IMG/VR virus record: IMGVR_UViG_3300027779_000039
Location: 1-53,139 of that record
Strand: one strand, 5' to 3'
Length of the DNA: 53,139 nucleotides
Source: a virus
In this document: in pieces, positions 23,386-41,842 of the stretch
Layout: each line of letters begins with the position of its first letter
How positions within the stretch are numbered: position 1 is the first letter of the stretch
Notes under the pieces: generated by a model
What the model was told of the DNA's origin: nothing
What the model saw: only the letters and a program-made list of their open reading frames with translations
Database searches by the model: none
Position numbers and translations under genes: made by a program

Positions 23386-23409
23386 TATTTTAAAATAAGG
23401 ATTAATACA

Positions 23410-23613
23410 ATGAAAACAATACAATTAAAATATAAAGAAAGTTATGGTAATAAAAGATTTTACCCTGACTGTGACTATTCACAAAACCTTTTACAATTTG
23501 TAAGCTATAATAAAAAATGTTTTACACTTGAGGAGTACCAAGTTCTAAAAGGTTGCCTAGGTTTTGATGTAATAATTAATAATGATATAGAGGAGGGTTT
23601 AAACGGTGAGTAA
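23410..23613 (+). CDS. Small protein of unknown function
   Basis: Sixty-seven residues with three cysteines (CDYS, KKCF and KGCLGF contexts), preceded by AAGGATT. Its last codons (GLNGE) contain the GTTTAAAC element at 23597, and its end overlaps the start of a mini-protein in another frame. No domain recognised. Confidence 0.5.
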   Translation: MKTIQLKYKESYGNKRFYPDCDYSQNLLQFVSYNKKCFTLEEYQVLKGCLGFDVIINNDIEEGLNGE

Positions 23614-23701
23614 CACAACGACAGAAGCAACGACAACACAAAAAATAATTTGTATAATGTCCTTAATCTTTTCAATAATTTATTTTTTATTTTTAAGATA
23701 G
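23606..23701 (+). CDS. 31-residue membrane mini-protein (GTG start)
   Basis: A GTG at 23606 follows GGAGG with exactly the GTTTAAACG element between binding site and start. The peptide has a Thr-rich start (SNTTTEATTTQ) and one membrane helix (IICIMSLIFSIIYFLFL). It overlaps the stop of the previous gene by eight bases. The strong ribosome binding site and a complete helix support it; no function can be assigned. Confidence 0.5.
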   Translation: MSNTTTEATTTQKIICIMSLIFSIIYFLFLR

Positions 23702-23704
23702 GTA

Positions 23705-23733
23705 TTGACAACAACGAATTAAAAAATTAATAT
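23705..23733 (+). promoter_or_regulatory. Sigma70-type promoter
   Basis: TTGACA (23705-23710), a 17-base spacer and TAATAT (23728-23733) precede the gene at 23760, whose AACGAGGTAAATAAA leader is typical of this arm. No TGTTACA boxes accompany it, so it may be constitutive, unlike the promoters at 22180 and 24842. Confidence 0.7.
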
Positions 23734-23759
23734 AAACTAATAACAACGAGGTAAATAAA

Positions 23760-24146
23760 ATGACTAAAATAAAAACAATAAGAGATAATAGCGGTACTGA
23801 TTACGACGGTACTATTGATGAGCCGTTTAGACAACGAAGGGTATTTGAACCGAAAAATAAAATAAGATTTCTTGGGACGACTAAAACATGGCGGGATAAG
23901 ATAAACGGTCAGACGTATTTTTCAACTAACGTTGAAGACATTGAGCGAGATGTTAATTACCTTTTCCCTATTACCAACGGCTATGGTGACCAATCAGAGT
24001 ATAACGTCAAGAGGGCGTTAGAGATTGACGACAGCGAGATAAGATTTATTAAAATTCCTAATTGTAAAAAGTCAGAAGTTAAAGAACACGGACAAGGACA
24101 AAAGGAAAATTACTTTTCCGACTTAGGATATTACTACCAAGATTAA
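23760..24146 (+). CDS. Unknown 128-residue protein with its own promoter and terminator
   Basis: A polar, charged protein without membrane segments; motifs such as DEPFRQRRVFEPKNKIRFLG and DVNYLFPITNGYGDQSEY are visible but belong to no family I recognise. It is the only gene between promoter 23705 and the strong terminator at 24179, so it forms a monocistronic unit directly next to the iteron region. That position would fit a regulator or replication initiator acting at the neighbouring repeats; there is no recognised DNA-binding motif to support this. Confidence 0.6.
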   Translation: MTKIKTIRDNSGTDYDGTIDEPFRQRRVFEPKNKIRFLGTTKTWRDKINGQTYFSTNVEDIERDVNYLFPITNGYGDQSEYNVKRALEIDDSEIRFIKIPNCKKSEVKEHGQGQKENYFSDLGYYYQD

Positions 24147-24148
24147 AC

Positions 24149-24172
24149 AGGTAAGCGTTTAAACAGTTACCT
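24149..24172 (+). other. Stem with GTTTAAAC in its loop
   Basis: AGGTAA (24149-24154) and TTACCT (24167-24172) frame a 12-base loop containing GTTTAAAC (24157-24164). It directly follows the stop codon of the preceding gene and directly precedes the strong terminator. It is the third hairpin in this arm that displays the element in a loop. Confidence 0.45.
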
Positions 24173-24178
24173 CCCCCT

Positions 24179-24217
24179 CCCCTCTAGTGTTATGGTTGGC
24201 ACTAGGGGGGTTTTTTT
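24179..24217 (+). terminator. Strong rho-independent terminator
   Basis: CCCCTCTAGTG (24179-24189) pairs with CACTAGGGGGG (24200-24210), 11 pairs with one G-U, followed by seven T. This is the best intrinsic terminator in the window. It insulates the first early unit from the 700-base non-coding region behind it. Confidence 0.9.
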
Positions 24218-24376
24218 GTGCCTAAAATTCTAGGCGTTTAAACGGACAGACTACCTCATTAAATCTTAGGCGTTTAAACGGGCAGATTATGACAGTAATA
24301 ATGATAGTATCGTGATAGTTTTTGTTCTCCTTTTGTTCTATGTATATATCAGAGAGTTTAAACGAGGTGTGTATAA

Positions 24377-24469
24377 GTGTTGTATTTATACCACGTTGTA
24401 TTTATGCAACAGAAATTAAGTGTTGTATTTATATCACGTTGTAAATATATCACGTTGTATTTATGCAAC
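24377..24469. repeat. Five-copy iteron array (GTTGTATTTATxYmAC)
   Basis: Copies begin at 24377, 24394, 24420, 24437 and 24453; each is 17-18 bases of the form (GT)GTTGTATTTATACCAC or CGTTGTATTTATGCAAC, the fourth reading GTTGTAAATATATCAC. Adjacent copies share their end base, and a nine-base spacer separates copies two and three. The ends of each copy (GTTG...CAAC or GTG...CAC) are themselves inverted, as in operators bound by dimers. Related TGCAACA sequences occur in the first control region near 21871 and 21937. Confidence 0.75.
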
Positions 24470-24478
24470 ACAGATAGA

Positions 24479-24551
24479 TTAGAATAGTTCTAAAGTATAG
24501 TTGCGAATGATTCTTAGAATAGTTCTAAAGTATAGATTAGAATAATTCTAA
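24479..24551. repeat. Three TTAGAAnnnTTCTAA palindromes
   Basis: Fifteen-base palindromes lie at 24479-24493, 24514-24528 and 24537-24551, each followed by AGTA; a shorter GAATGATTC lies between the first two. The same palindrome with centre CGG is in the first control region at 21901-21915. Spacing of starts is 35 and 23 bases. They look like operators for a dimeric regulator. Confidence 0.65.
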
Positions 24552-24794
24552 AGTAGATAAGCGTTTAAACGTTCTGTTACAATCTGTTACAATAATTTAT
24601 TAAAGTAGTTATTTTAGGGGTTTACAGGTTTTAACGGTCATAGAGCGTCATACAGACGATTTAAGCCTTTTGGCTACGCTAGTATCTAAAAATCCTAAAT
24701 CAAATTTGTTCTCTCTTTGTTCTCTTTTTTCCCTATATACATTATATATATAAAAAAACATTTTTTACTGAGCGTTTAAACGACTGATAAAGTT

Positions 24795-24875
24795 TGTTAC
24801 ATTGTGTTACAATTCTTTACCGAAAATAATTTATTTTTTTGTTGACGGGTTTATTTAAAAATGCAAAAATATAAA
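24795..24875 (+). promoter_or_regulatory. Early promoter with tandem TGTTACA boxes, second copy
   Basis: TGTTACA occurs at 24795 and 24805, ten bases apart. TTGACG at 24842-24847 lies 31 bases past the second box, the same distance as in the promoter at 22180. The spacer TTTAAAAATGC aligns with TTAAAATGC of the first copy; the -10 is poorer (AAAAAT with 17-base spacing, or TATAAA further down). It would drive the small-gene block beginning at 24918. Confidence 0.6.
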
Positions 24876-24917
24876 CACAGTCAATAATGATTGCAAATTT
24901 TTAGAGGTAAAAATAAA

Positions 24918-25184
24918 ATGATTAAAATATATGAACATGATAAAAAAGTATTTAATATGAGAAAAGAAATAAACATAAATAAATATAAAGCTGAAGAAGG
25001 CGAGGTAAAAGAGTATCAAGAATTTTTTGTAGAACTTGACGCAAAAGAGATACAGACACTTTGTCAGTTAATAGGTTTAACAATGAACAAAGGAATAGAG
25101 TTGGAAAACTTATACAAAAAATTATCAGACTTTAATAATCATACTAATCAAGAAGATTGTAGGCTTGAGTTATACACAGGCTAA
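24918..25184 (+). CDS. Small helical protein, unknown
   Basis: Eighty-eight residues from the ATG at 24918 behind AGAGGTAAAAATAAA; an upstream in-frame start lacks a binding site. Mostly helical and charged, with FFVELDAKEIQTLCQLIGLT in the middle. It is the first of a run of small genes, and its stop is followed three bases later by GTTTAAACGAGGAG. No family recognised. Confidence 0.55.
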   Translation: MIKIYEHDKKVFNMRKEININKYKAEEGEVKEYQEFFVELDAKEIQTLCQLIGLTMNKGIELENLYKKLSDFNNHTNQEDCRLELYTG

Positions 25185-25210
25185 CTGTTTAAACGAGGAG
25201 GAGAAATAAA

Positions 25211-25465
25211 ATGTTTATAATAAATCAAACTATGGGTAAAACAATCTCATATAGAAATTGGGGAATAACAACCACAATTCGTAAAGGTAAAAAATACTGG
25301 ATAATTGTGGAGGATTGTTTCGGTCAGTATGAAGAATATTGGCAATTAATTGACACATTAAAACAAGCTAAAAATTTAATAGATTTTTATGAAGAAAAAA
25401 AGAAACTTAATGCTGATGGTTATGAAGAAGAGGAAGTTTTAGAGTTAGACTGGTTGGTGGAATAA
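25211..25465 (+). CDS. Small protein of unknown function
   Basis: Eighty-four residues, start behind a triple GAGGAGGAG site that directly follows a GTTTAAAC element. The protein alternates strands in the first half (GITTTIRKGKKYWIIVED) and an acidic helix in the second (FYEEKKKLNADGYEEEEV), ending in LELDWLVE. A similar acidic ending (IEVDWFEE) occurs in the protein at 26308, which may hint at a shared interaction tail. Confidence 0.55.
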   Translation: MFIINQTMGKTISYRNWGITTTIRKGKKYWIIVEDCFGQYEEYWQLIDTLKQAKNLIDFYEEKKKLNADGYEEEEVLELDWLVE

Positions 25466-25466
25466 A

Positions 25467-25892
25467 ATGTTAAAATCTAAAAAATTAAAATTTAAAAAAT
25501 TACCATATGAAGCAAGTTATAAAACTTTGTTAAAAAGATTTCCTGAAATTAATATTGACCAAGATGATGATTTGGGTGATGAAACTTTTCACAAAGCCAT
25601 GAATGGTGCAAAGCCTTATTGGGTTGATATAAATGGACATTTTTATGAAAGATACGGTTTGTGTTGGGATAATGATTGTCCTGTGGCAGGATATTCACAT
25701 ATTGTATGGGGTAGTGATAATAGAGATAGTCATGTCCAAATTTGTGCAAAGTTTATATATTTAATTACAGAACATTTTAAAGATTGTCATTTTATTACAC
25801 CAAGAGACATTGTTGATTGGGGTGTAGCCCATAAGCCTATAAGTGATGAAGAAAGATATTGGACAGATTATTACGAAAATATTGGAAAGTAG
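25467..25892 (+). CDS. Unknown 141-residue protein
   Basis: Begins one base after the previous stop. It has paired aromatic and Cys/His residues in the centre (YERYGLCWDNDCPVAGYSHI) and a later HFKDCHFITPRDIVDWGVAH, a composition that could bind a metal, but no known domain was recognised. The stop codon TAG forms part of the following GTTTAAAC element (25892-25899). Confidence 0.55.
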   Translation: MLKSKKLKFKKLPYEASYKTLLKRFPEINIDQDDDLGDETFHKAMNGAKPYWVDINGHFYERYGLCWDNDCPVAGYSHIVWGSDNRDSHVQICAKFIYLITEHFKDCHFITPRDIVDWGVAHKPISDEERYWTDYYENIGK

Positions 25893-25915
25893 TTTAAACA
25901 ACGAGGAGAAATAAA

Positions 25916-26284
25916 ATGAAAAGTTTAATAGAAACAATACTACAAACAGCAGTAGATAAGGGCTATGAGTATGCTCTAATAGAGCCATACGACAGAACAA
26001 CAGAACTTAAAAGAACTAATGATGTATCGTTAGGTTTTGCAAATGCAAAAAATAAATGTCAAGGCATACATAATTATGACGAGATTATTATAGAGTTTTG
26101 GCACAAGGAAGAACACATGGGCAATCTTTATTGGACTAATGGGAACGATGACGCAGAACAAGTTTCTGATTACCATTGTAGATTAGATGACGAAGATAAT
26201 TTAGGTCTTGACACTATAATAAAACAATGGGAAAAAGACTTATTAAAAATAACACAACCCAATAATTCTGAAGCATGGAACTAA
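25916..26284 (+). CDS. Unknown 122-residue acidic protein
   Basis: Starts behind CAACGAGGAGAAATAAA after a GTTTAAAC element. Acidic overall, with the segment IEFWHKEEHMGNLYWTNGND and a C-terminal helix LDTIIKQWEKDLLKI. No cysteine pair apart from two single Cys. No family recognised; belongs to the early small-gene block. Confidence 0.55.
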   Translation: MKSLIETILQTAVDKGYEYALIEPYDRTTELKRTNDVSLGFANAKNKCQGIHNYDEIIIEFWHKEEHMGNLYWTNGNDDAEQVSDYHCRLDDEDNLGLDTIIKQWEKDLLKITQPNNSEAWN

Positions 26285-26307
26285 GGGTTTAAACGAGGAA
26301 AAGAATA

Positions 26308-26559
26308 ATGAGAAAGGCTAAATTTATAGAACTACAATATACAACACACGCTAGTTTAGACTTAGGGGAGGAGGGTATAAACCCTGATGACATTAAATCT
26401 ACATTCTTTAAGTGGGGTATGGCAGACATAGAACTTAAAGACGGGACTAAGCACACTATACATCTTAATCACCATGAGGTAGACTGTAAGTACCACGAGA
26501 AGGGGGGTGTCTATGATGATGATTACGAAAAAATTGAAGTGGATTGGTTTGAAGAGTAA
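26308..26559 (+). CDS. Unknown 83-residue protein
   Basis: Starts behind GAGGAAAAG after a GTTTAAAC element. It contains a GMADIELKDGTKHTIHLNHH strand pair with several His, and ends in the acidic IEVDWFEE that resembles the end of the protein at 25211. No known domain. Its stop is again followed within three bases by GTTTAAACGAGGAG. Confidence 0.5.
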   Translation: MRKAKFIELQYTTHASLDLGEEGINPDDIKSTFFKWGMADIELKDGTKHTIHLNHHEVDCKYHEKGGVYDDDYEKIEVDWFEE

Positions 26560-26582
26560 GAGTTTAAACGAGGAGAAGGATA

Positions 26583-26732
26583 ATGGATAAAGAGTGGCAG
26601 ACATTTATAGAAGAAGTCTATGAGATAGCTTTTGGAGACAACGCCTTTAACAGAGGATTTGATTCAGAAGAAGTCGTAACTAAACTAAAAGAATTTTCAG
26701 ACAACGCACACAAATGGGAGGAGAACGTTTAA
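26583..26732 (+). CDS. Small acidic helical protein (49 residues)
   Basis: Reading frame MDKEWQTFIEEVYEIAF onward, 49 residues, behind CGAGGAGAAGGATA. The composition is acidic with amphipathic helices and three Trp/Phe clusters. The stop TAA lies inside the GTTTAAAC element at 26727-26734. Binding site, spacing and position inside the regularly built block support it. Function unknown; small acidic phage proteins often act as DNA mimics or inhibitors, which is only a possibility here. Confidence 0.6.
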   Translation: MDKEWQTFIEEVYEIAFGDNAFNRGFDSEEVVTKLKEFSDNAHKWEENV

Positions 26733-26749
26733 ACGATATGAGTAAAGTA

Positions 26750-26802
26750 TGTTACATGGTGTTACAAAACTTTACTTGCATTATACTAATACTAATATAA
26801 AG
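26750..26802 (+). promoter_or_regulatory. TGTTACA pair with adjacent promoter candidate
   Basis: TGTTACA starts at 26750 and 26760, again ten bases apart. Immediately after it come TTTACT or TTGCAT -35 candidates and several TATACT/TAATAT -10 candidates up to 26798. The boxes are closer to the core promoter than in the other two copies, so they might act as an operator or a class II activator site. It precedes the winged-helix gene at 26827. Confidence 0.5.
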
Positions 26803-26826
26803 TCAAATTAACAACGGAGAAATAAA

Positions 26827-27156
26827 ATGAATATATTTAAAAAACTATTTAGTAAGGAAGCAGACTTTAGTGGAGAAGGTTATTCTGAGCCTAGAGATAA
26901 GTATAGACTAGGTAGACAAGCAGTTAAGGTCTATAACTATATGCACAACAACGGGTGGAAGAGTTTAAACGCCATAGCTAAAGCTACTGGAGAACCTTCA
27001 CCATCTATATCAGCACAGCTTAGAAACTTTAGAAAGCCTAGCTTTCAACCTGTAGACGCTATCTATGAAGTAGAGAAGAGATATGTACCTAAAGGGGTAT
27101 GGGAATATAAGTTGATAGTAGTGCCTAATAAAACTATGTTTAAGAAGGTTATATAA
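26827..27156 (+). CDS. Winged-helix DNA-binding protein, candidate regulator
   Basis: A 109-residue protein. Residues about 25-75 look like a winged helix: LGRQAVKVYNYMHNNGWKSL as helix 1, NAIAKATGEPSPSISAQLRN as helix-turn-recognition helix, and a beta wing ending in YVPKGVWEYKLIVV. It has its own box-bearing promoter region, and its recognition region even contains a GTTTAAAC (26963-26970, encoding SLN). It is the clearest sequence-specific DNA binder in the plus arm and so the first candidate for binding GTTTAAAC, TGTTACA or the palindromes; this link is inference. Confidence 0.65.
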   Translation: MNIFKKLFSKEADFSGEGYSEPRDKYRLGRQAVKVYNYMHNNGWKSLNAIAKATGEPSPSISAQLRNFRKPSFQPVDAIYEVEKRYVPKGVWEYKLIVVPNKTMFKKVI

Positions 27157-27470
27157 GGAGTTAGGAAAGAATTAATTTGGTTGGGAAAGGCGGTGAGAGT
27201 CCGTGGTGTAACCCTTAAACAAAGGAGAAAACCCATTAAAAGTATTCCCCAAGAGATTACCTATCAATGCCAAGTTATAAAAAATTATAGTACCCATTGT
27301 CTTAGATACATTATTTCGTTAAGTTGAGGGACATTGTCTTCAATGCAGAGAGGATACAGAGGCTGAGGTTGAGACTCGTATAATGGTGGGCTAAGTTAGT
27401 AGTTAAAACAGTTGCATGCCTAGACTACAAGCTATAAAATAAATAACGTTTAAACGCATAGGAGAATAAA
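27157..27470 (+). ncRNA. Non-coding stretch, possible structured RNA
   Basis: About 314 bases without a convincing reading frame, in an arm where genes are otherwise packed. It is richer in G than its surroundings. Visible elements are CGG-TGAGAGT-CCG (hairpin at 27191-27203), the flanking TTGGGAAAGG, a short ATTG-tctt-CAAT hairpin, GAGTC (27197) complementary to GACTC (near 27383), and AGGATAC near 27351. The GGGAA...GGTGAGAGTCC...AGGATAC order faintly recalls cobalamin riboswitches, but the essential CCCGC-ACTGT part is missing. The last part (27448-27470) is a GTTTAAAC plus ribosome binding site. Confidence 0.45.
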
Positions 27471-27629
27471 ATGCAATTAATTAAACCAAATACAAGATTT
27501 TATACAAAGAGTACGCCTAGATGGTTAAGAGAATTATGGGGGTATCATTCACACGATAGTAAGCCCGTTACAATGCCTAAGTATAAGTTTATGGAGAAAT
27601 ACCTTGACAGAGAAGAAGACACCAGATAA
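27471..27629 (+). CDS. Small basic protein (52 residues)
   Basis: Frame MQLIKPNTRFYTKSTPRWLR onward, behind GTTTAAACGCATAGGAGAATAAA. Lys/Arg/Tyr-rich, ending in EKYLDREEDTR. The start has a good AGGAG. No family recognised; the protein sits directly behind the putative structured RNA. Confidence 0.55.
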   Translation: MQLIKPNTRFYTKSTPRWLRELWGYHSHDSKPVTMPKYKFMEKYLDREEDTR

Positions 27630-27735
27630 GCCTAGAGTAGTAAGAGAGTTGCAAGGAACTTACACAAGAGTAAAAGAAGATAAGACTAAGTACAATAGAA
27701 AACGTTTAAACAATGAGGAGAAAGATGATGAGTAA
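27604..27735 (+). CDS. Possible 43-residue protein with TTG start
   Basis: A TTG at 27604 has GGAG eight bases upstream and opens a frame TEKKTPDKPRVVRELQGTY onward that overlaps the previous gene by 26 bases and the next by eight. The RELQGTYxRVKED part is reminiscent of the N-terminus of P27-type small terminases, but it is too short to judge. It fills an otherwise non-coding gap and contains GTTTAAAC (27704) as codons RLN. Tentative. Confidence 0.35.
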   Translation: MTEKKTPDKPRVVRELQGTYTRVKEDKTKYNRKRLNNEEKDDE

Positions 27736-27880
27736 AGAAAAATTAACAATGGGAGAACTACTAGACAGGCTAGACGCAGAGTTTTATGACGTAGATTTAA
27801 CAACGCATGACAGTCCTACAAAAGGAACAGTAGCAGTAGTACATTTTTATGAGGATAAACTTGATGAGGAGGAAGAATAA
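27728..27880 (+). CDS. Small acidic protein (50 residues)
   Basis: MSKEKLTMGELLDRLDAEFY onward, with acidic end DEEEE. Starts at the second of two adjacent ATGs (27725 or 27728) behind GAGGAGAAAG. The stop overlaps the next start as TAATG. No family recognised. Confidence 0.6.
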   Translation: MSKEKLTMGELLDRLDAEFYDVDLTTHDSPTKGTVAVVHFYEDKLDEEEE

Positions 27881-28059
27881 TGGCACAGTTTAGTATAAGT
27901 TTTAGTTTAACAAGAGACAATGACTTAAAAAGTGATGATGAGTCGTGGTTTGATAAAGAACATATATCTAATGAAATTAAATCATGGTTAGAGGATTTAG
28001 ATTTTAAGGTTGAGGCAATAGAAATAAAGGATAAAAATGAAGTACGTTTATATTATTAG
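27880..28059 (+). CDS. Small protein with acidic helix (59 residues)
   Basis: MAQFSISFSLTRDNDLKSDD onward, coupled to the previous gene by TAATG. The segment KSWLEDLDFKVEAIEIK is encoded by the first copy of a 44-base direct repeat; the second copy lies just behind the stop and serves as leader of the next gene. No domain recognised. Confidence 0.55.
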   Translation: MAQFSISFSLTRDNDLKSDDESWFDKEHISNEIKSWLEDLDFKVEAIEIKDKNEVRLYY

Positions 28060-28099
28060 AGGATTTAGATTTTAAGGTTGAGGCAATAGAAATAAAGGA
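27988..28099 (+). repeat. 44-base direct repeat, coding copy and leader copy
   Basis: Bases 27988-28031 and 28056-28099 are identical. The first copy encodes the end of the 59-residue protein; the second is non-coding and ends in the AAAGGA that begins the next ribosome binding site. The bases after the second copy (GGAGAAAGATGATGAGTAA) match the leader at 27718-27735. This looks like a recent recombination or slippage event that created a new leader. Confidence 0.85.
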
Positions 28100-28107
28100 G
28101 AAAGATG

Positions 28108-28176
28108 ATGAGTAATTGGCAGATATTTGAATTATCAATAGGCATAGTATGTATTGCTATATTGTGGAACATATAA
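28108..28176 (+). CDS. 22-residue membrane mini-protein
   Basis: MSNWQIFELSIGIVCIAILW plus NI: a polar start and one membrane helix. An ATG one codon upstream (28105) is equally possible. The GGAGAAAGATG leader is excellent. Such single-helix mini-proteins are common in phage early regions and often modulate membrane proteins; the role here is unknown. Confidence 0.5.
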   Translation: MSNWQIFELSIGIVCIAILWNI

Positions 28177-28189
28177 AAGGAGAAGAATA

Positions 28190-28357
28190 ATGAACGCCAA
28201 CGATTTAAGTAGTGCTTTGTGCGATATGTATGACGTTAAACGTGCCTTGAGAACGGAAGTTCTGTTAGCACCCAAAGATAATGAAGGTACTGAAACTACC
28301 ATTGGTGAATGTATTGATGACGTTATTGAATTTCTTGAAACTTTGGAGGGGATATAA
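28190..28357 (+). CDS. Small acidic protein (55 residues)
   Basis: Starts at ATG 28190 behind AAGGAGAAGAATA (MNANDLSSALCDMYDVKRAL); a longer in-frame extension overlaps the mini-protein and is unlikely. Helical, with TTIGECIDDVIEFLETLEGI as C-terminal helix. Its stop overlaps the next ATG (TAATG). Function unknown. Confidence 0.6.
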   Translation: MNANDLSSALCDMYDVKRALRTEVLLAPKDNEGTETTIGECIDDVIEFLETLEGI

Positions 28358-28551
28358 TGGACATAGTATTAAATGAAGATTACTGGGATTGTGAATGCTT
28401 ATCAAATTACATTCATAGTAAAAAAAAATTAGAGTGTAGTAAATGTAATTCTTTAGCAGATGAACAACCTGATAGCCGACAAGAGGAGGTAAAATATTAC
28501 AAACCCATGACTTTAAAAGAAAGAAACTACAGAAAGAAACATAATTTATAG
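28357..28551 (+). CDS. Small protein with Cys pairs
   Basis: Sixty-four residues containing WDCECLSNYIHSKKKLECSK followed by CNSLADEQPDSR. Four Cys in two closely spaced pairs plus one His fit a small zinc-binding finger, and YKPMTLKERNYRKKHNL is a basic tail. Coupled to the upstream gene. The exact family is not recognised; nucleic-acid or protein binding is plausible. Confidence 0.6.
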   Translation: MDIVLNEDYWDCECLSNYIHSKKKLECSKCNSLADEQPDSRQEEVKYYKPMTLKERNYRKKHNL

Positions 28552-28561
28552 GAGAAGTATA

Positions 28562-28714
28562 ATGGCTAAAAAACAGATACAAGGAAAGAATAGAAAGAAG
28601 ACTACTAAAGCTATGTCTCATACGGGAGGCAACAGTAGACCATTAAAAGATATATACTTTGATGAGGTATCACACAAATGGTTTAAACGCCCTATAAAAA
28701 TAGAGGAGGCATAA
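28562..28714 (+). CDS. Small basic protein (50 residues)
   Basis: MAKKQIQGKNRKKTTKAMSH onward, Lys-rich at the N-terminus and acidic at the end (KIEEA). Leader TAGGAGAAGTATA. Codons WFKR contain a GTTTAAAC (28681-28688). The next start follows after one base. No family recognised. Confidence 0.55.
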   Translation: MAKKQIQGKNRKKTTKAMSHTGGNSRPLKDIYFDEVSHKWFKRPIKIEEA

Positions 28715-28715
28715 G

Positions 28716-28913
28716 ATGAGTACATACAGAGACATAATAAGAAAGATACTATACTTTGAAGAACTAGGGACATTGAGCCTAGACCAAGAGATAACAGAAG
28801 AAAGTTTAAACGACCTAAGAGAAGGTATGATACATTTCGCACCTAACAACGTGCCTTACAATGATGACAGGCAGATGAACATAGACGATTACCTAGATAA
28901 AAAAGGAACATAA
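28716..28913 (+). CDS. Small acidic protein (65 residues)
   Basis: MSTYRDIIRKILYFEELGTL onward, amphipathic helices, Asp/Glu-rich, ending in DDYLDKKGT. The start is preceded by GAGGAGGCATAAG. GTTTAAAC at 28804 encodes SLN. The next ATG follows directly after the stop. Function unknown. Confidence 0.6.
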   Translation: MSTYRDIIRKILYFEELGTLSLDQEITEESLNDLREGMIHFAPNNVPYNDDRQMNIDDYLDKKGT

Positions 28914-28914
28914 C

Positions 28915-29208
28915 ATGGACAAGAAAGCAATACTAATGGCAATAGCCAGTAAAGACGATATAGAGCATATAACAGACGCTATAATGAAGTTTGTAGATAA
29001 GACTTCAGCAGAGGTAGGAGTAGATAGAGAAGACGTTGCTACAAGTTCTCTAGTAGCTTTACTATTATACTATGTAAAGAACTCTTCAGAAGATAAGGCA
29101 GTAGCCGTAGGTAATTTAATGAGTTTATTGAGTAGTGTGTTTATAATAACTTCTACTGCTACTAATTGGGTAGAAGTACAGGAAGAACCTAGTGGGGGTA
29201 TTAACTAG
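28915..29208 (+). CDS. Small helical protein with hydrophobic C-terminal region
   Basis: Ninety-seven residues. N-terminal helix MDKKAILMAIASKDDIEHIT, then VATSSLVALLLYYVKN and VAVGNLMSLLSSVFIITSTA as hydrophobic stretches that could be membrane segments or buried helices. It ends the small-gene subgroup: behind it lies a stem-loop (29206-29258). No family recognised. Confidence 0.55.
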   Translation: MDKKAILMAIASKDDIEHITDAIMKFVDKTSAEVGVDREDVATSSLVALLLYYVKNSSEDKAVAVGNLMSLLSSVFIITSTATNWVEVQEEPSGGIN

Positions 29209-29258
29209 GTTATATATAGTGTAGCCCCCCACGGGAGATGCGTGTAGCATATAACCTA
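29206..29258 (+). terminator. Stem-loop with 10-bp perfect stem
   Basis: TAGGTTATAT (29206-29215) and ATATAACCTA (29249-29258) are perfect complements around a 33-base loop that holds two GTGTAGC repeats and CCCCCCACGGG. It overlaps the stop codon of the preceding gene and is followed by ATTTTAATG. The AT-rich stem makes it a poor terminator, so another RNA role is possible. Confidence 0.5.
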
Positions 29259-29291
29259 ATTTTAATGTTGTCAAATTATAAGGAGATAAAA

Positions 29292-29483
29292 ATGGCAGAT
29301 ATAAATATACAGACAGAAGAAATAGTAAATGAAGTTTTAGACGAAGCAAGAGATACCATTATCCAAAGGGGAGGTCAGGAGTTGGAGTGGTCATACCATG
29401 CGGACACAGACTTAAAAAAGATTGTTGTAGTGTTTGCTACTAACAAAGAAGATGACGAAGAACTATTAACGAAAGGAATGTGA
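29292..29483 (+). CDS. Small acidic protein (63 residues)
   Basis: Starts at ATG 29292 behind AAGGAGATAAAA; a longer frame would run through the stem-loop. MADINIQTEEIVNEVLDEAR is helical, followed by a strand pair (LKKIVVVFATNKEDDEEL). No recognised domain. One base separates it from the next gene. Confidence 0.6.
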   Translation: MADINIQTEEIVNEVLDEARDTIIQRGGQELEWSYHADTDLKKIVVVFATNKEDDEELLTKGM

Positions 29484-29484
29484 T

Positions 29485-29748
29485 ATGAGAAATACGTTTA
29501 GTAACTTTTCTGAACACAAGCAGTATCTTGTAGGCTTAATACACCGATTACTGTTTAGTGTAAAAAGAAAATCTAGGACAGTAAAGTACATAAAAAAATA
29601 TCTTAGGTATGAGGTTGAAGAATACAAAGAGTTAGATAATAGTAGTATTCACGATTTTGATGATATTATATGTGCGGGTAGACGAGAATTAGCAGAAAGT
29701 TTATTAGAAGAATTAGAGAGGTGGGAACATGGTCAAAAAAGATTCTGA
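29485..29748 (+). CDS. Small basic helical protein (87 residues)
   Basis: MRNTFSNFSEHKQYLVGLIH onward, Lys/Arg/Tyr-rich middle (KRKSRTVKYIKKYLRYEVEE), helix-rich end with LAESLLEELERWEHGQ. It overlaps the next gene by 20 bases. Function unknown. Confidence 0.55.
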   Translation: MRNTFSNFSEHKQYLVGLIHRLLFSVKRKSRTVKYIKKYLRYEVEEYKELDNSSIHDFDDIICAGRRELAESLLEELERWEHGQKRF

Positions 29749-29968
29749 AGAAACTATGTATACGATAGCAAGACAAGACCTTGCCCGCATAGAAGAATAT
29801 GAGGTGCAATGGATAGAGTTCTTTGGTTGTTGGGTAAGGTTAGAAAGGTCGTCAGAGACAGGGCAATCCGTTATGATTACTGTACACAAAGATGAAGATT
29901 CAGATTACATAGGTAAGTTAGTAGTTAATAATGAGTGTTTAAACCCCAAGGAGATAGCAGATGAGTAA
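29729..29968 (+). CDS. Small protein (79 residues)
   Basis: Starts inside the end of the previous gene (MVKKDSEETMYTIARQDLAR) behind AGAGAGGTGG. Beta-type pattern CWVRLERSSETGQSVMITVH. GTTTAAAC at 29937 encodes CLN. Overlaps the next gene by eight bases. Unknown function. Confidence 0.55.
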   Translation: MVKKDSEETMYTIARQDLARIEEYEVQWIEFFGCWVRLERSSETGQSVMITVHKDEDSDYIGKLVVNNECLNPKEIADE

Positions 29969-30185
29969 AAAATTAATATATACTTTTCACGGAGAGAATC
30001 ATCATTGTGATGAGGTAGAGTTAGATAGTTTTTTAGATAGCTTTAATAACCATGCACCCGAATTTTTTGAGAACATTAGAGCATTCTCTTCTAAAAAAGA
30101 TAGAGATACTTTTGCTACTAGAGAGACAGAAAGAGACGCAGAAGTTACTGAACGTTTAAACGCTATACTAAACAGAGGATTTTAA
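29961..30185 (+). CDS. Small acidic protein (74 residues)
   Basis: MSKKLIYTFHGENHHCDEVE with a His/Cys cluster, then helices and TERLNAILNRGF, where GTTTAAAC (30154) encodes RLN. It ends directly at the primase start, so it is in the replication operon. Function unknown. Confidence 0.55.
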   Translation: MSKKLIYTFHGENHHCDEVELDSFLDSFNNHAPEFFENIRAFSSKKDRDTFATRETERDAEVTERLNAILNRGF

Positions 30186-30977
30186 TTGAGGGCTACAGAA
30201 AGACTTCATCAAGCTATACAAGAATTAAATTTAGAAGATGAGGCTACACAGAGACTTGATTGTGTCGAGTGTGGGAAAAGAAATACCCTTACTGTAACTA
30301 GGATAGACGGGAAGATATTATGGAATTGTTATTCTGCTTCTTGTAGTATTGGAGGAGTGACTGATGCAGAATACTCTAGGGAAGATGTTACTAACAAAGT
30401 ACATCTCGTACCTAAAGAAAAAGAAGACAAGCCTTTTGTAGTACCTGATTATTTTGTAAGAGATGTAACGAGAAGTAGTGACTGTTTAAACTACATCAAT
30501 GAATTTAATTTTATGTCTGTTTATGATAAGAACCCAGAAAGATTTATGTATGATGTCAAAGGAGATAGATTAGTTTTTATGACAGTATATGATGGTGTTG
30601 TTGTGGGTGCAGTTGGAAGGGCATTGAAGTACGGGATTAAATGGTACAGGTACGATACTTGTCACACGCCTTTTATTATACAGGGCGGAGACTCTATTGC
30701 TGTAGTTGTAGAAGATTGTACTTCAGCATGTGTTGTAGCCACTGTGGGAACAGGGATAGCCTTGTTAGGTACTAATCTTTTGACTGAGCATATACAATAT
30801 CTAAAACCTTATAAGAACCTTGTAGTAGCTTTAGATAGAGACGCTACAGATAAAGCCATTGACATACAACGTAAGTTAGCTATTCATGTAGACAGATGCA
30901 AAGTTCTTATTTTGGAAAGGGACTTGAAGTACGAGAACGAAACAAGTATTAAAAATTTATTAGGAGAGATGATGTAA
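30186..30977 (+). CDS. Toprim primase with N-terminal zinc ribbon
   Basis: A 263-residue protein with a TTG start (30186) behind AGAGGA. Residues 26-53 form a zinc ribbon (Cys 26, 29, 48 and 53), as in the T7 gp4 and DnaG primases. The Toprim domain follows at about 168-235 with the catalytic Glu in VVVEDCTSA (176) and the DRD metal motif at 217-219. There is no helicase domain; the helicase is a separate gene 270 bases further on. It makes RNA primers for lagging-strand synthesis. GTTTAAAC at 30484 encodes CLN. Confidence 0.85.
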   Translation: MRATERLHQAIQELNLEDEATQRLDCVECGKRNTLTVTRIDGKILWNCYSASCSIGGVTDAEYSREDVTNKVHLVPKEKEDKPFVVPDYFVRDVTRSSDCLNYINEFNFMSVYDKNPERFMYDVKGDRLVFMTVYDGVVVGAVGRALKYGIKWYRYDTCHTPFIIQGGDSIAVVVEDCTSACVVATVGTGIALLGTNLLTEHIQYLKPYKNLVVALDRDATDKAIDIQRKLAIHVDRCKVLILERDLKYENETSIKNLLGEMM

Positions 30978-31222
30978 TGGCATTTAGAAAAAAGATTATA
31001 CCAAGAAATTCTAAGAATAGAGGAATAAGATTAGGAGTAGATTTTAATGACATAGTAGATGATGAGACTGCAGGAGATTGGTCGCAGATATGTAGTGACT
31101 GCCAGAGGAAGCATAATTTTCACAAAGCTAAGTTAGATGAATATAACATTGACAACGAGACTATATGCGGTATAAGAAGATGCGACAACATAGCAAGTTT
31201 GTTTATTACTTTTGATAGATAG
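30977..31222 (+). CDS. Small Cys-containing protein between primase and helicase
   Basis: Eighty-one residues, coupled to the primase by TAATG. It has CSDCQRKH and CGIRRCDN, four Cys in two pairs about 27 residues apart, a likely zinc finger, and a basic N-terminus (MAFRKKIIPRNSKNRGIRLG). Placement between primase and helicase suggests a replication accessory protein. The family is not recognised. Confidence 0.6.
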   Translation: MAFRKKIIPRNSKNRGIRLGVDFNDIVDDETAGDWSQICSDCQRKHNFHKAKLDEYNIDNETICGIRRCDNIASLFITFDR

Positions 31223-31246
31223 CGTTTAAACATAGAGGAAAATAAT

Positions 31247-32476
31247 ATGACAAGTATGCCTAAAGAAATATTAAAAAAGTATGCGACTAACCATGACTTT
31301 CACAATCAAGTAGTAGATAGATTAGATGACACCATGTTTTCTAATGGGTTGTTAAAAGTTAAACATGCGGTAGATGACGCATATAAAAAGTATAAGGACA
31401 AAGACCTAACGTTGACTGATATTGCTATGAATTATATAGCTACGTTCCCGTCAATAACAGTAAGCCAGAAAGATTCTATAATGGCAGACTTTGAGGTAAT
31501 TAAAAAACTAAACGATATAGATGATGATATAGCATTTGACATGGTCTATAAGATGTCTCTTCAATCTCAGGCACAGAAAGTTGCTCAACAGTCTATAAAG
31601 ATAATGCAAGGCGACCACTACGACTCTACCTCGGTAATCAGGGCTACTGAAAAACTTAGGTCTATGGCGGATAGAGGGAAAGAAAGCGAGCTTAGAGCAT
31701 CTAACGACATGGAAGAATTGTTTGATGAGTTAGACCAAGAACATCACTACACTTTTCATATACCTAGTTTAAACGACAGGGTAGGAGGAATAAGCAAGGG
31801 AATGTTTGTTGTTGTAGGAGCTAGACCTAACGTAGGTAAGTCAGGGTTTGCTCATTCTATGATAGCCTCTCCAAAAGGTTTCTTAGACCAAGGTGCTAAA
31901 TGTATTATGTTTACTAATGAGGAGAAGGCTCAAAGACATATGTTAAGAATGGTTACTGCCTCATGCCAAGAAAGAATATCTTATGTAAAAGAATACAAGC
32001 ATAGGTTTGTAGATAAATGGAAAAAGAAGTCAGAGAATTTACATATATTTGATTCTAGTAGCTTGACATTCGGAGAGATTGAGGCAATAGTGGAGAAAGA
32101 AAAGCCTGATGTAATAGTCATAGATATTTTAGATAAGACTCAGATAGGCGGAACATTTGCTAGAGACGACCAACGACTAACGAGTTTATACGCAGAGAGT
32201 AGAGACTTAGCTAAAAGACAGGAGTGTGTTGTGTTTGGTATGTGCCAGTTATCCGCAGAAGCATCAGGTAAGATTATATTAAACGATTCTATGCTGTCAG
32301 GCTCAAGAACAGGTAAGGCAGGTGAGGCGGATTTAATTGTTTTAATTGGTAAGGAAGAGACAGAAGAAGGTGATACCAATATGAGATGGATTAACATAGT
32401 AAAGAATAAAATTACAGGTCAGCATGGAAACTTTGCAGTTATGTTTGACCATTTAACAGCATCTTACATGGACTAA
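31247..32476 (+). CDS. Replicative DNA helicase, DnaB-like
   Basis: A 409-residue protein. The RecA-type ATPase has Walker A GARPNVGKS (191-199), the NEEK motif near 224-227, Walker B VIDILD (291-296) and the conserved FGMCQLSAEA glutamine region. The N-terminal 150 residues are helical, as in the primase-interaction domain of DnaB-like helicases. It unwinds the replication fork as a hexamer together with the separate primase. GTTTAAAC occurs before its ribosome binding site (31224) and inside it (31767). Confidence 0.88.
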   Translation: MTSMPKEILKKYATNHDFHNQVVDRLDDTMFSNGLLKVKHAVDDAYKKYKDKDLTLTDIAMNYIATFPSITVSQKDSIMADFEVIKKLNDIDDDIAFDMVYKMSLQSQAQKVAQQSIKIMQGDHYDSTSVIRATEKLRSMADRGKESELRASNDMEELFDELDQEHHYTFHIPSLNDRVGGISKGMFVVVGARPNVGKSGFAHSMIASPKGFLDQGAKCIMFTNEEKAQRHMLRMVTASCQERISYVKEYKHRFVDKWKKKSENLHIFDSSSLTFGEIEAIVEKEKPDVIVIDILDKTQIGGTFARDDQRLTSLYAESRDLAKRQECVVFGMCQLSAEASGKIILNDSMLSGSRTGKAGEADLIVLIGKEETEEGDTNMRWINIVKNKITGQHGNFAVMFDHLTASYMD

Positions 32477-32492
32477 GGTGTTTAAACGTATA

Positions 32493-32625
32493 TCTCCGTC
32501 TTATAACTTGGGATGGAGAAGCGACTGAGCCTAGTCTATATGAGAAAGAATTGTCCCTCCTCTGGATTACTCTCTCATACTTTAGACGATTGTGTTACCT
32601 CGTACAATCTATTAAGCTCAGTCGC
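32493..32625 (+). ncRNA. Three-way-junction RNA in the DNA polymerase leader
   Basis: The gap 32477-32643 is non-coding. Four perfect or near-perfect helices are visible: an upstream hairpin TCTCCGTC/GATGGAGA (32493-32500 with 32512-32519), a closing stem GCGACTGAGC/GCTCAGTCGC (10 bp, 32521-32530 with 32616-32625), and within it TATGAGA/TCTCATA (32539-32545 with 32573-32579) and GATTGT/ACAATC (32588-32593 with 32604-32609). The closing stem ends 18 bases before the polymerase ATG, so folding could control translation. It matches no riboswitch or ribozyme core that I can recognise. Confidence 0.7.
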
Positions 32626-32643
32626 ACTCATTAAGGAAACAGT

Positions 32644-34797
32644 ATGTATAATAATAAAGTAGTAATAGACATAGAGAATAAAGTTACTGATGGTAACCCC
32701 TCTCCTTATCATACCGATAACTATTTGGTATGTGTAGGTCATGCCTCTGTAACAGACAAAGTTAATAACGTTACAGTCACATGGTTTAAACACAATGAGT
32801 ATAAAGATTCTTCGGTCAATGACTTCACAGACTTACAAAAAGTGTTAGATGGTGCAGACCTATTGATAGGACACAATATAAAATATGATATGTCATGGTT
32901 GTATGAGTGTGGCTTTACTTACAATGGAGACTTGCATGACACTATGACAGGAGAGTATCTTCTTGCTAGGGGAGAAAAGTTAGCATTATCTTTAGCTGAG
33001 TCATGTAAAAGAAGAGAAGTTACATTAAAGAAGTCTGAACTTATTGACGGGTACTTTGAAAACAAAATAGGTTTTGAAGCCATGCCTATAGCTTTAGTAG
33101 GCGAGTATAATAAATATGATATAATATCGTGTGGTGAACTTTACTTAGAACAAGAAAGACTATTTCATACGGATGAATACAAATCTATTCTACCCATTAT
33201 TTTATTAACTAACGAGATGACTAAAGTCTTAATAGATATAGAACGTAACGGGATAGCTATTGACGTAGATGCGTTGGAGAAAGTTAGATTAACATACAGC
33301 AATGAAAGAACGTTTAAGTCTGCAGAAAATAAAGAAGTAGTAAAAGAAGTAATGGGAGACAGACCTTTTAATCTAGCTAGTCCAGAACAGATGTCTGAAA
33401 TAGTATGGTCAAGAAAAGTAAATGATAAAAATGAATGGGCTAGAGTATTTGGCATAGGAGCTAGGGCAGGGGGAACGAGTAAGTACAAAAAACGTATACC
33501 AAAGAGTAGTTTAAACGACATAGTTAAAGCACATACTACTATATCTAGGAAAACAGAAGTCAAGCAATGCAGAACTTGTAGAGGAGCAGGCACTATATTT
33601 CGTAGAAAAAAAGATGGTACTCCTTACTTAAAGCACCCTAAATGCCAGTCGTGTAGAGGTACGGGATACACTTATAAGAAGCTACAGGAAGTAGCAGGGT
33701 TTAAGTTTTCTCCTACATCAGTAGACCAGATAACCGCTAATGGGTTTGCTACTGATAAGGCTACCTTTGGAAGTTTAGCAGAGATAGCGGAGGCACAAGG
33801 TCTAGACAAAGCACACAAATTTTTGACTAACTCTCAAAGAATAAATGCTCTTAATACTTACATCAATTCTTTTTGTAAGGGCATACAGCAAAATGTTTAT
33901 GATAACGGCATACTACATCCTCAAATAAATCAGGTGCGTACTTCAACAGGTAGGCTATCTTCGTCTAAGCCTAACTTTCAAAATCTACCTCGTGGAGGTA
34001 CGGCTAGAGTTAGAAAAGCTATAGTGTCAAGATTTAAGGGAGGAAAAGTTCTTGAAGGAGACTTTGCTCAGTTAGAGTTTAGAACTGCTGTATGGGTAGC
34101 GGATGACCCTGTAGGAAGAAAAGAAATAGACAATGGCTTTGACGTACATGCACATACTGCTAAAGTACTGACAGAAGCAGGGCAAGAGACATCAAGACAA
34201 GAGGCTAAGTCCCGAACATTCAGACCTTTGTATGGGGGAATGTCTGGCTCTCCTGCAGAAGTAGCTTATAACATATCTTTTATGAGTAAATATAGTAGTA
34301 TAGGAAAATGGCATAAGACTCTTCAAGAAGAAGCTATAGCTACTAAAAAAATTACTACTCTAACAGGCAGACAGTTTGTATTTCCAAAAGCATCTAGGAC
34401 ACGAGCAGGCTCTACCTTTGCCACACAAATTAAAAATTATCCTGTGCAGTCCATTGCCACCGCAGAAATAGTTCCTTTAGCATGTATATTATTTAAGGAA
34501 GTATTAGACTCAAAAAAATATAAATCACTTATCATTAATACAGTGCATGACAGTATTGTTGTTGATGTGCATCCTGATGAGATAGATACTATACCTTTTG
34601 AACTAAGAAAGGCTATGCTACGAGTCCCTGAAAGATTGCTATCTCAATTTAATCTTACTTTAGACGTTCCTATGGGAGTGGATTTAAAGATAGGAGATGA
34701 TTGGTTAGACATGGAAGAGATACTAGATGAACCGAGAAGACATGTTTTCAAAGTGGAGAAGGGAATTGTACCAGTACAAGAAAGCCCATCCATATGA
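32644..34797 (+). CDS. Family A DNA polymerase with inserted DnaJ-type zinc finger
   Basis: A 717-residue replicative polymerase. The N-terminal 3'-5' exonuclease has DIE (9-11), LIGHNIKYD and YNKYD motifs. Between exonuclease and polymerase there is a zinc finger with CRTCRGAG (Cys 309 and 312) and CQSCRGTG (Cys 334 and 337), half of the DnaJ central domain. The polymerase has motif A with Asp 473 (GDFAQLEFR), motif B with Lys 522 and Tyr 530, and motif C HDS with Asp 636. All catalytic residues are present. The exonuclease-DnaJ-polymerase arrangement is reported for HMO-2011-type phages. The ribosome binding site AAGGAA follows the structured leader. Confidence 0.93.
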   Translation: MYNNKVVIDIENKVTDGNPSPYHTDNYLVCVGHASVTDKVNNVTVTWFKHNEYKDSSVNDFTDLQKVLDGADLLIGHNIKYDMSWLYECGFTYNGDLHDTMTGEYLLARGEKLALSLAESCKRREVTLKKSELIDGYFENKIGFEAMPIALVGEYNKYDIISCGELYLEQERLFHTDEYKSILPIILLTNEMTKVLIDIERNGIAIDVDALEKVRLTYSNERTFKSAENKEVVKEVMGDRPFNLASPEQMSEIVWSRKVNDKNEWARVFGIGARAGGTSKYKKRIPKSSLNDIVKAHTTISRKTEVKQCRTCRGAGTIFRRKKDGTPYLKHPKCQSCRGTGYTYKKLQEVAGFKFSPTSVDQITANGFATDKATFGSLAEIAEAQGLDKAHKFLTNSQRINALNTYINSFCKGIQQNVYDNGILHPQINQVRTSTGRLSSSKPNFQNLPRGGTARVRKAIVSRFKGGKVLEGDFAQLEFRTAVWVADDPVGRKEIDNGFDVHAHTAKVLTEAGQETSRQEAKSRTFRPLYGGMSGSPAEVAYNISFMSKYSSIGKWHKTLQEEAIATKKITTLTGRQFVFPKASRTRAGSTFATQIKNYPVQSIATAEIVPLACILFKEVLDSKKYKSLIINTVHDSIVVDVHPDEIDTIPFELRKAMLRVPERLLSQFNLTLDVPMGVDLKIGDDWLDMEEILDEPRRHVFKVEKGIVPVQESPSI

Positions 34798-34847
34798 CAG
34801 AATTACGTTGCCAAAAATGTCATGGCACAAAGACGGAGAAAATATAG
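34794..34847 (+). CDS. Possible 17-residue CxxCHG peptide
   Basis: An ATG overlapping the polymerase stop (ATGA) opens the frame MTELRCQKCHGTKTEKI. The CQKCHGT motif resembles half of a zinc finger and the CxxCxG units within the polymerase itself. There is no good ribosome binding site of its own, so it would depend on coupling. It may be a real mini-protein or a remnant of a longer zinc-finger gene. Low confidence. Confidence 0.3.
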   Translation: MTELRCQKCHGTKTEKI

Positions 34848-34882
34848 TGCTTAAAAAAAGAAATAAATATTAGCATTATAAT

Positions 34883-34913
34883 TTGACATTTATTAAAAAT
34901 AGAGTATAACTCT
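34883..34913 (+). promoter_or_regulatory. Strong promoter with palindrome over the -10 box
   Basis: TTGACA (34883-34888), a 16-base spacer and TATAAC (34905-34910). The -10 lies inside the 13-base palindrome AGAGT-ATA-ACTCT (34901-34913), which could be an operator. The downstream gene has the canonical AGGAGGT binding site, so it is probably produced in quantity. Confidence 0.7.
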
Positions 34914-34937
34914 ATAACACTTTAACAGGAGGTCTAT

Positions 34938-35810
34938 ATGACTACAGAATTAACATTAACAGAAAACACTTTGCCTTTTTCACAGGCTATGGAAGCATTA
35001 GGGATTTTTGATGAGCAGACATCAAGCTCCATGATAAACCTTCCTAGACTATCAATAAATAATAAGACTAGGTCTGCAACAGGCTCGTCTATACCAGACG
35101 GCACAGTTAAGATTGACCACCCTAAGTACGGTGTCGTTTACGCTGAACAGGCATGGATAAGAGTATTTCAACAGAGATTCTTTTACCAGAGATACGATGA
35201 AAACGCTATCTTCCAGACCAAAGAAGGTAAGGACATGCGAGGAAGGTATGTAAATCGTTCTGTATTTGTTCGCAATCCGTATGATGATGCCTTAGACGAA
35301 TTAGGTACTATGAATTGTGGTAAGACTAAAATAGATGATTGGGATACTGCTTCGGACACAGAAAAAGAATGGTGGAGAGGATCTAAGAGATACAGAGTAT
35401 TGTTTGGTCTTTTGCGTGTAGTAGATGCAGTAAAAGAAGGCAATGGTGAAAAGGTATCTTTTGAAAACTTCCCAGTAATGTATCAGATAGGTAGTAAGGA
35501 CACGTTTAAACAGTTCGGTAACGCTCTATCTGAGATGGCAAAAAGCAAAGTAGCCCCTTACAGTAGAGAACTAAAGTTTGAGATGGAGTATAAACAAACT
35601 CCCGCTATTAGTTGGTACATAGTTAATCCTACCATTGAAAAAGAAGCATTAGAACTTACTGAAGATGATTTAGCTACTAATAAAGTATTTAATGAATACA
35701 TCCTAACTCACAGCGAGATGGTAAGACAGAAAGCGTCAGAGGCTTCTAAGAAGATTTTAGATGCTGATGTAGTACTTGGTGCAGAAGAGTTCATAGAAGT
35801 AGCAGTATAA
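34938..35810 (+). CDS. Probable single-stranded DNA-handling protein
   Basis: A 290-residue protein with its own strong promoter and best-in-genome ribosome binding site, one base before a Cas4-like nuclease gene. Aromatic and basic residues are frequent in the centre (WIRVFQQRFFYQRYDENAIF, RGSKRYRVLFGLLRVVD), and the C-terminus is acidic, as in ssDNA-binding proteins. Similar proteins lie at this position in marine podoviruses. No classical OB-fold motif can be confirmed by eye; a recombination or annealing role with the nuclease is the alternative. Confidence 0.5.
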   Translation: MTTELTLTENTLPFSQAMEALGIFDEQTSSSMINLPRLSINNKTRSATGSSIPDGTVKIDHPKYGVVYAEQAWIRVFQQRFFYQRYDENAIFQTKEGKDMRGRYVNRSVFVRNPYDDALDELGTMNCGKTKIDDWDTASDTEKEWWRGSKRYRVLFGLLRVVDAVKEGNGEKVSFENFPVMYQIGSKDTFKQFGNALSEMAKSKVAPYSRELKFEMEYKQTPAISWYIVNPTIEKEALELTEDDLATNKVFNEYILTHSEMVRQKASEASKKILDADVVLGAEEFIEVAV

Positions 35811-35811
35811 C

Positions 35812-36666
35812 ATGAATGATAACTTAGCAAAGATATTTGCCTACCTAGAAAAAGCTAGTGCAGATAACTCTACCATGTCAGACGATATTGTAGAAGAAGC
35901 AGGTGAGTATTTTAAAAAGGCTTTAAAACGACAGTTTAATCCTGAGAAGAGGGTGTTTAAACTACGACCCTCTAATTTAGGCAAGCCTCTATGTCAGCTA
36001 CAGATGGATTCTATGGGAGCAAAGAAACAACCCCATGATTCTACCTTTAAGATGCGTATGATACTAGGAGATACAATAGAAGCTATCTTTAAAGCAATAT
36101 TAAAAGCTTCTAACGTACCTTTTGAAGACAGCGAACAGGTAGAGATACAAATAGGAGAACACACCTTAACAGGTGAAACCGATTTATACATTGACGGAAA
36201 AGTAGATGATGTTAAATCTTGTTCTGCTTGGGCATACAGAAATAAATTTTCATCTGATGCTAATATGAAACACCATGATACGTTTGGTTATGTAGACCAA
36301 TTAATTATGTACGCTAAAGGCTCTAACAAAAAGATAGGTGGTTGGTGGGCTATTAATAAAGCCACTGGAGAAATGACCTACTTAGAGTTAGAGCTTTCTG
36401 ATGAAGAAAAGGAAGAGCGTTTAAACGTTATAGAATCTAAGATAGAAGCTATAAAAAATAAACTTCCTTTTAAACGTAATTTTGAGGCGGTTGAAGAAAC
36501 TTTTAGAGGTAAGAAGACAGGTAATAAACATCTTAATAAAACGTGTGGTTTTTGTGAATACAAGCACTCTTGTTGGGATGACCTTACACATAAACCTCAA
36601 CCTGCTTCTTCTGCTGTTAGCCCCCCTTGGCATTATTATACTGAACTTTCCGAGGCTACAGCTTAA
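35812..36666 (+). CDS. Cas4/RecB-like nuclease with probable Fe-S cluster
   Basis: A 284-residue PD-(D/E)XK nuclease. Catalytic residues are GETD (Asp 124), DVKS (Asp 133, Lys 135) and the QhxxY-like VDQLIMY (Gln 163). Cys 61 upstream and Cys 245, 248 and 254 downstream (CGFCEYKHSC) give the C-Xn-C-X2-C-X5-C arrangement that holds a 4Fe-4S cluster in Cas4 and AddB. It probably acts as a DNA exonuclease in recombination, replication-end processing or host DNA breakdown, together with the protein encoded one base upstream. Confidence 0.82.
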   Translation: MNDNLAKIFAYLEKASADNSTMSDDIVEEAGEYFKKALKRQFNPEKRVFKLRPSNLGKPLCQLQMDSMGAKKQPHDSTFKMRMILGDTIEAIFKAILKASNVPFEDSEQVEIQIGEHTLTGETDLYIDGKVDDVKSCSAWAYRNKFSSDANMKHHDTFGYVDQLIMYAKGSNKKIGGWWAINKATGEMTYLELELSDEEKEERLNVIESKIEAIKNKLPFKRNFEAVEETFRGKKTGNKHLNKTCGFCEYKHSCWDDLTHKPQPASSAVSPPWHYYTELSEATA

Positions 36667-37097: not shown

Positions 37098-37121
37098 ACA
37101 CAAATGAAAATATCTTTGTGT
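37098..37121 (+). other. Hairpin before the DUF3310 gene
   Basis: ACACAAA (37098-37104) and TTTGTGT (37115-37121) pair around a 10-base loop, directly before the GGGAGAG binding site of the next gene. The rest of the gap 37026-37139 is non-coding, with a weak TTAACA promoter-like element near 37061. Confidence 0.4.
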
Positions 37122-37139
37122 TCGGGAGAGAAAAACTGA

Positions 37140-37385
37140 ATGAAGAAGCTTACAGCATCGAAGTTTGATGATGTGAATTATCCACAACATTATAATGAAG
37201 GAGGCATAGAAGCTATAGACGCAATAAAAGCTTCTATGTCATCCTTAGAATTTAAGGGGTACTTAAAAGGCAATGCCCTAAAGTATATGTGGAGATATAC
37301 TTATAAAGATAAGCCTGTAGAAGATTTAAGGAAAGCTAAATGGTATTTAGAAAAGTTGATAGAGTCTAATGAAAACACTAGCTAG
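37140..37385 (+). CDS. DUF3310 protein
   Basis: Eighty-one residues: NYPQHYNEGGIEAIDAIKAS, a GYLKGNALKYMWRYTYKD core and a final LRKAKWYLEKLIE helix, the full signature of DUF3310, a small helical family widespread in phages and usually placed among DNA metabolism genes. Nucleotide binding has been suggested from its relation to MazG-type folds but is not established. It overlaps the next small gene by 17 bases. Confidence 0.85.
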   Translation: MKKLTASKFDDVNYPQHYNEGGIEAIDAIKASMSSLEFKGYLKGNALKYMWRYTYKDKPVEDLRKAKWYLEKLIESNENTS

Positions 37386-41535: not shown

Positions 41536-41612
41536 AAAGGTCATGTAAGCCCTATATGCTATATAAGCTTAATACAAGCTCATACAGACAAATTAAGGGT
41601 TTTATGACCTTT
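41536..41612. terminator. Bidirectional, branched terminator between the convergent arms
   Basis: AAAGGTCAT (41536-41544) pairs perfectly with ATGACCTTT (41604-41612), continued by AAGCCCT/AGGGTTT (41547-41553 with 41596-41602). Inside lie two small hairpins, TATA-tgc-TATA and AGCTT-aatac-AAGCT. On the minus strand the stem is followed by a six-base T run (complement of 41533-41538); on the plus strand by TTTCC only. It ends both transcription arms, better for the minus one. Bases 41613-41842 hold AT-rich non-coding sequence with nothing else recognisable. Confidence 0.65.
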
Positions 41613-41842
41613 CCTATTTAACTATATATAAATCTTTCTTAGAACTCATCTATGAGAACTTTTTATTAAAAAACCTATTGAATTTTCTATATGACTCGTA
41701 AGAGGCACACTATTAAAGTAATTATGGAACTACTCCCTATAATATACGGCATCGACTATCTCCTGTGCTATAAACACAGTTATACTCAATTTTAAATATT
41801 AATCAAATCAATTAATGTAATGTATACTATTTACGTTATGAA

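Follow-up and report, generated by a model that had tools for sequence, protein, structure and literature searches.

Does the non-coding gap ahead of a phage DNA polymerase gene carry an RNA that controls the polymerase? This study addressed the question in the IMG/VR record IMGVR_UViG_3300027779_000039, the whole of which (53,139 nucleotides (nt), one strand) is called the window here. The gap lies on the plus strand at 32477-32643, between the gene for a DnaB-like helicase (31247-32476, plus strand) and that for an A-family DNA polymerase (32644-34797, plus strand), the presumed regulated cistron, whose product matches Pfam DNA_pol_A and contains an insert with a Pfam match to DnaJ-type CXXCXGXG. 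A first-pass annotation, made from the letters alone, had described a 167-base gap before the polymerase gene, and the gap is present as described. Our results revealed that it holds a real structured RNA, beyond chance, whose fold has been preserved by evolution and whose sequence has not.

The predicted RNA is a three-way junction with a separate upstream hairpin. The closing stem, P1, comprises a 5' strand (32521-32530; mean pair probability, 0.89-1.0) and a 3' strand (32616-32625), both with compensatory changes among relatives. In the window it is a perfect stem of 10 base pairs (bp) that ends 18 nt upstream of the polymerase ATG, and in both respects the first-pass annotation was right. 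Its two perfect internal hairpins were half right: the P3 arm (32588-32609, GAUUGUG...UACAAUC) is a regular hairpin, but the P2 arm (32534-32587) is an imperfect one with a 3-nt bulge and internal loops. The upstream hairpin P0 (32493-32519), previously given as 8 bp, has 11 bp in the predicted fold when G-U pairs are counted. The apical loop region of P2, L2 (CCCUCCUC, 32555-32562), presents a CCUC that is predicted to be unpaired, as is the apical loop of P3, L3 (UUACCUCGU, 32595-32603). The spacer behind P1 (32626-32643) contains the Shine-Dalgarno (SD) sequence AAGGA at 32633-32637. Folded alone, the three-way junction had a minimum free energy of -38.0 kcal/mol (z = -6.5), and 0 of 200 shuffled sequences were equally stable; the whole region gave a z score of -5.1. 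In a 330-window scan of the plus strand from 20.8 to 42.3 kilobases (kb), the junction ranked second for excess folding energy.

Relatives were collected by a polymerase search of IMG/VR and are uncultured marine phages. All 20 contigs found that carry a polymerase at least 70% identical and reach far enough upstream have P0 and the junction ahead of that gene; they comprise clade A (L001-L012, polymerase 83-100% identical) and clade B (L013-L020, 70-73%). P1 measures 10-14 bp across these homologues, and P0 is predicted at the equivalent place in every one, with sequences unrelated between the clades. When trained only on clade A, a covariance model recovered clade B, most members with expectation (E) values of 7.6e-7 to 3.7e-5; L013 reached only 12 bits despite a junction reading identical to that of L014. 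The same model found nothing convincing outside the two clades. No significant match was obtained in the next relatives, L021-L027 (approximately 42% polymerase identity), or in the isolates HMO-2011, CRP-212, CRP-1, and HTVC033P, and the sole match in an isolate, W01, was insignificant (E = 0.1). In these other HMO-2011-type phages, L021-L027 and the four isolates, protein genes lie between the helicase and polymerase genes or the two overlap, the latter in three of the isolates, and no such RNA is present. Polymerase identity to the nearest isolates is below 60%, the leader DNA had no match among 50,697 phage records, and no relatives were found among the genome contigs. Two extra contigs retrieved with the L3 DNA pattern, L040 and L041, lacked a polymerase and were discarded as chance matches.

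Selection on the structure is most apparent in P1. Along the polymerase tree, P1 underwent 20 change events over 13 pairs, with 10 independent compensatory double changes, whereas controls with slid partners yielded 0-1 compensatory doubles of 24-31 events. The first-pass annotation had stated that relatives without compensatory changes would speak against the element; the relatives have them. P1 contains 13 G-U cells versus 1 A-C cell, and within clade B one position takes A-U, G-U, and G-C. Because G-U is tolerated and A-C is not, the selected molecule is the plus-strand RNA. A covariance-model alignment of 13 sequences, which was fitted to the structure and is hence biased toward it, showed 91.9% paired cells compared with 26-43% when slid, and its covariation score (0.393 versus 0.216 in shuffles) exceeded those of all 500 shuffles. 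Since this alignment leans toward the structure, the argument rests on the tree count, which was confined to the ungapped P1. RNAalifold applied to a plain MAFFT alignment recovered P1 correctly but mispaired P2 and P3 because the clades were out of register, and that alignment was replaced by the covariance-model one.

The stem sequences and junction nucleotides drift, and the junction segments vary between the clades in length and sequence, but CCUC is kept unpaired, according to prediction, in both apical loops. L2 reads UCCUCCUC in most of clade A and UCUCUCCUCGUU in clade B. L3 is of the UACCUCGU type in clade A and UCCUCGU in clade B, with CCUCGU in most homologues overall and CCCUGU as the exception in L009-L011. 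In every homologue, the end of P1 and the next AUG are 17-19 nt apart despite differing spacer sequences. The flanking genes vary. Most clade B contigs have an open reading frame (ORF) of 62 amino acids upstream of the element, and a small SET-domain gene of L019 (L019:2654-2992; Pfam E, 3e-10) sits exactly between the leader RNA and the polymerase gene, where it uses the leader's ribosome binding site with unchanged spacing. Because the neighboring genes change and the distance from P1 to the AUG stays fixed, the element appears tied to the downstream start, which points to a cis-acting leader. The helicase-polymerase junction is also an insertion hot spot in relatives (L013-L027 and L034), and the inserts include small ORFs, the SET gene, an endonuclease VII-like gene recognized by eye, and, in CRP-1, thymidylate synthase.

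The element is most likely an undescribed control element that serves the polymerase mRNA as a switch or landing pad. The more specific proposal, a structured leader that acts in cis on the polymerase cistron and offers two CCUC loops to a trans-acting factor, has in our estimate about an even chance of being correct. Such a leader would uncouple polymerase translation from the upstream helicase gene. L2 and L3 would be displayed beside an open ribosome binding site to the factor, for which a phage or host RNA-binding protein is the likeliest candidate and the polymerase itself a possible one; acting where the initiating ribosome has its 5' edge, the factor would set polymerase output. Autoregulation through putative binding of the polymerase to its own leader is plausible. 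Judged from the sequences, this is a real and new family of structured RNA whose general kind is known, and we infer its mechanism, including regulation as such, the protein nature of the factor, and the sign of its effect. Several observations weigh against this interpretation. No simple occlusion switch can be seen, the SD being outside every conserved helix. The gene directly behind the element in L019 is the SET-domain gene, with the polymerase as the second cistron. The 62-amino-acid ORF upstream of the element in most clade B contigs ends inside P1, so its translation would partly melt the stem. By inspection, the loops could pair with the polymerase's own SD over only approximately 4 bp, and this option was dropped.

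Known cis-acting leaders offer partial parallels. Ribosomal-protein operon leaders are bound by a product of their own operon; they are likewise cis-acting and structured, but no mimicry of ribosomal RNA and no Rfam match were seen here. The gene 43 translational operator of T4 and RB69 is likewise a structured leader with conserved loop nucleotides and lies directly ahead of a phage DNA polymerase gene. However, the T4-type operator, to which the polymerase encoded behind it binds, is a single small hairpin with a UAAC-type loop and includes the ribosome binding site. The present element is instead a three-way junction of approximately 105 nt in which two loops carry CCUC; 17-19 nt separate the end of P1 from the AUG, and the SD stays outside the structure. 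The polymerase families are also unrelated, and the T4 operator is a functional analogue only (PMC3014915).

The main rival starts from the same conserved loops. It holds that the leader is an anti-SD RNA whose CCUC loops pair with SDs of other phage or host mRNAs and silence early genes once the replication operon is transcribed, either within the operon or, when processed, in trans, similar to alphaproteobacterial cuckoo RNAs. We consider this rather unlikely. CCUC is predicted to be unpaired in both loops, and the ribosome binding sites of the early genes starting at 22678 and 23760 each contain a perfect 9-nt complement of the window's L3 (UUACCUCGU); in the window this match was the best among 1024 CCTC-containing 9-mers (NNNCCTCNN). 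L2 pairs with the helicase ribosome binding site over 9 nt in clade B contigs and 11 nt in L007. Nevertheless, any CCUC loop matches SD sequences, and most contigs showed a weak excess over CCUC-keeping shuffles, a control that leaves the fuller CCUCCU anti-SD free to change. A relative of the 22678 gene reads AAGAGGTAA instead of ACGAGGTAA, and the match is lost; L003 and L007 share an identical L2 while their helicase sites differ. A search for co-evolution between the loops and their putative target ribosome binding sites did not show a specific signal. The cuckoo or alpha-r14 small RNAs (NfeR1 and CcsR) likewise have an anti-SD motif in unpaired hairpin regions and drifting stems, but they are separate small RNAs with CCUCCUCCC in three hairpins (PMC10746234), whereas this element has two loops with a shorter motif and is embedded before a start codon. 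The motif CCUCCUCCC was not found in its unpaired hairpin parts, the closest being UCCUCCUC in L2 and CCUCGU in L3, and no promoter or terminator signal of a separate transcript stood out. That such an RNA within the leader shuts off the phage's own early genes (22678 and 23760) or the helicase, as an RNA-timed early-to-middle switch, would be quite unlikely.

T7 RNase III sites are single irregular hairpins. They too are structured intercistronic RNAs in a phage replication operon, and P1 stacked on P2 may analogously form a double-stranded RNase III site or a 5'-protective structure that splits the helicase and polymerase messages. The stem of 10-14 bp with side arms inside the intercistronic gap, the P0 hairpin found upstream in every case, and the position between cistrons with varying neighbors are consistent with such a role in mRNA processing or stability. 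It is an unlikely one, however, because it leaves unexplained both the constant 17-19 nt to the AUG and the conservation of loop sequences amid changing stems; conserved loops are not expected of T7 sites, and this leader has them.

Several riboswitches have a three-way-junction outline, and the first-pass annotation had likened the element to riboswitches and to autoregulatory mRNA leaders. A structured, conserved mRNA leader before the polymerase is strongly supported by the compensatory changes, but the riboswitch half of the analogy is weak. A switch responding to a small molecule such as a nucleotide would suit a three-way junction ahead of a DNA replication gene; it is nonetheless very improbable. 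The Rfam search that the annotation had proposed returned no family at the gathering score or at E up to 5, neither an SD-hiding conserved helix nor a terminator is present, and we agree with the annotation that no known ligand-binding core can be recognized, the junction being variable between clades and the conservation lying in the apical loops. A DNA-level element, such as a priming site or an origin folded as single-stranded DNA, might be expected between helicase and polymerase genes but is hardly credible given the constant distance to the AUG and the G-U bias of P1, which is that expected of plus-strand RNA.

Other features of the window were recorded alongside. Strong excess folding energy also occurred in the plus-strand scan at 41536-41665, 36271-36400, 37116-37310, 35361-35490, and 24376-24505, the last of which contains repeats such as GTTGTATTTAT. 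The palindrome GTTTAAAC is the commonest 8-mer, with 38 copies versus 1.6 expected; the copies span 13774-47143 and are dense from 21839 to 36426, many lying approximately 20-25 nt upstream of start codons and others within genes. Between 4.0 kb upstream and 6.5 kb downstream of the polymerase start, all 14 window sites have matching positions in the relative G006; in the clade B record G001, the 14 copies lie at different positions, and G003 has none. GC-rich hairpins between early genes (22620-22660 and 23360-23395) have GTTTAAAC in the loop (CGGGGAGGGTTTAAACGCTCTCCCC; AGGGGGTAGTTTAAACGCTACCCCT). The palindrome looks like a putative operator-like DNA-binding site under selection.

HMO-2011-type phages are in the top rank of marine phage abundance, with more than 2000 polymerases of this type reported (PMC9038755), and the literature searched yielded no report of post-transcriptional control in them. 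Located ahead of a core replication gene, the leader represents a covariation-supported RNA family without an Rfam entry. It could become a compact, testable case of the control of polymerase expression in an A-family system.
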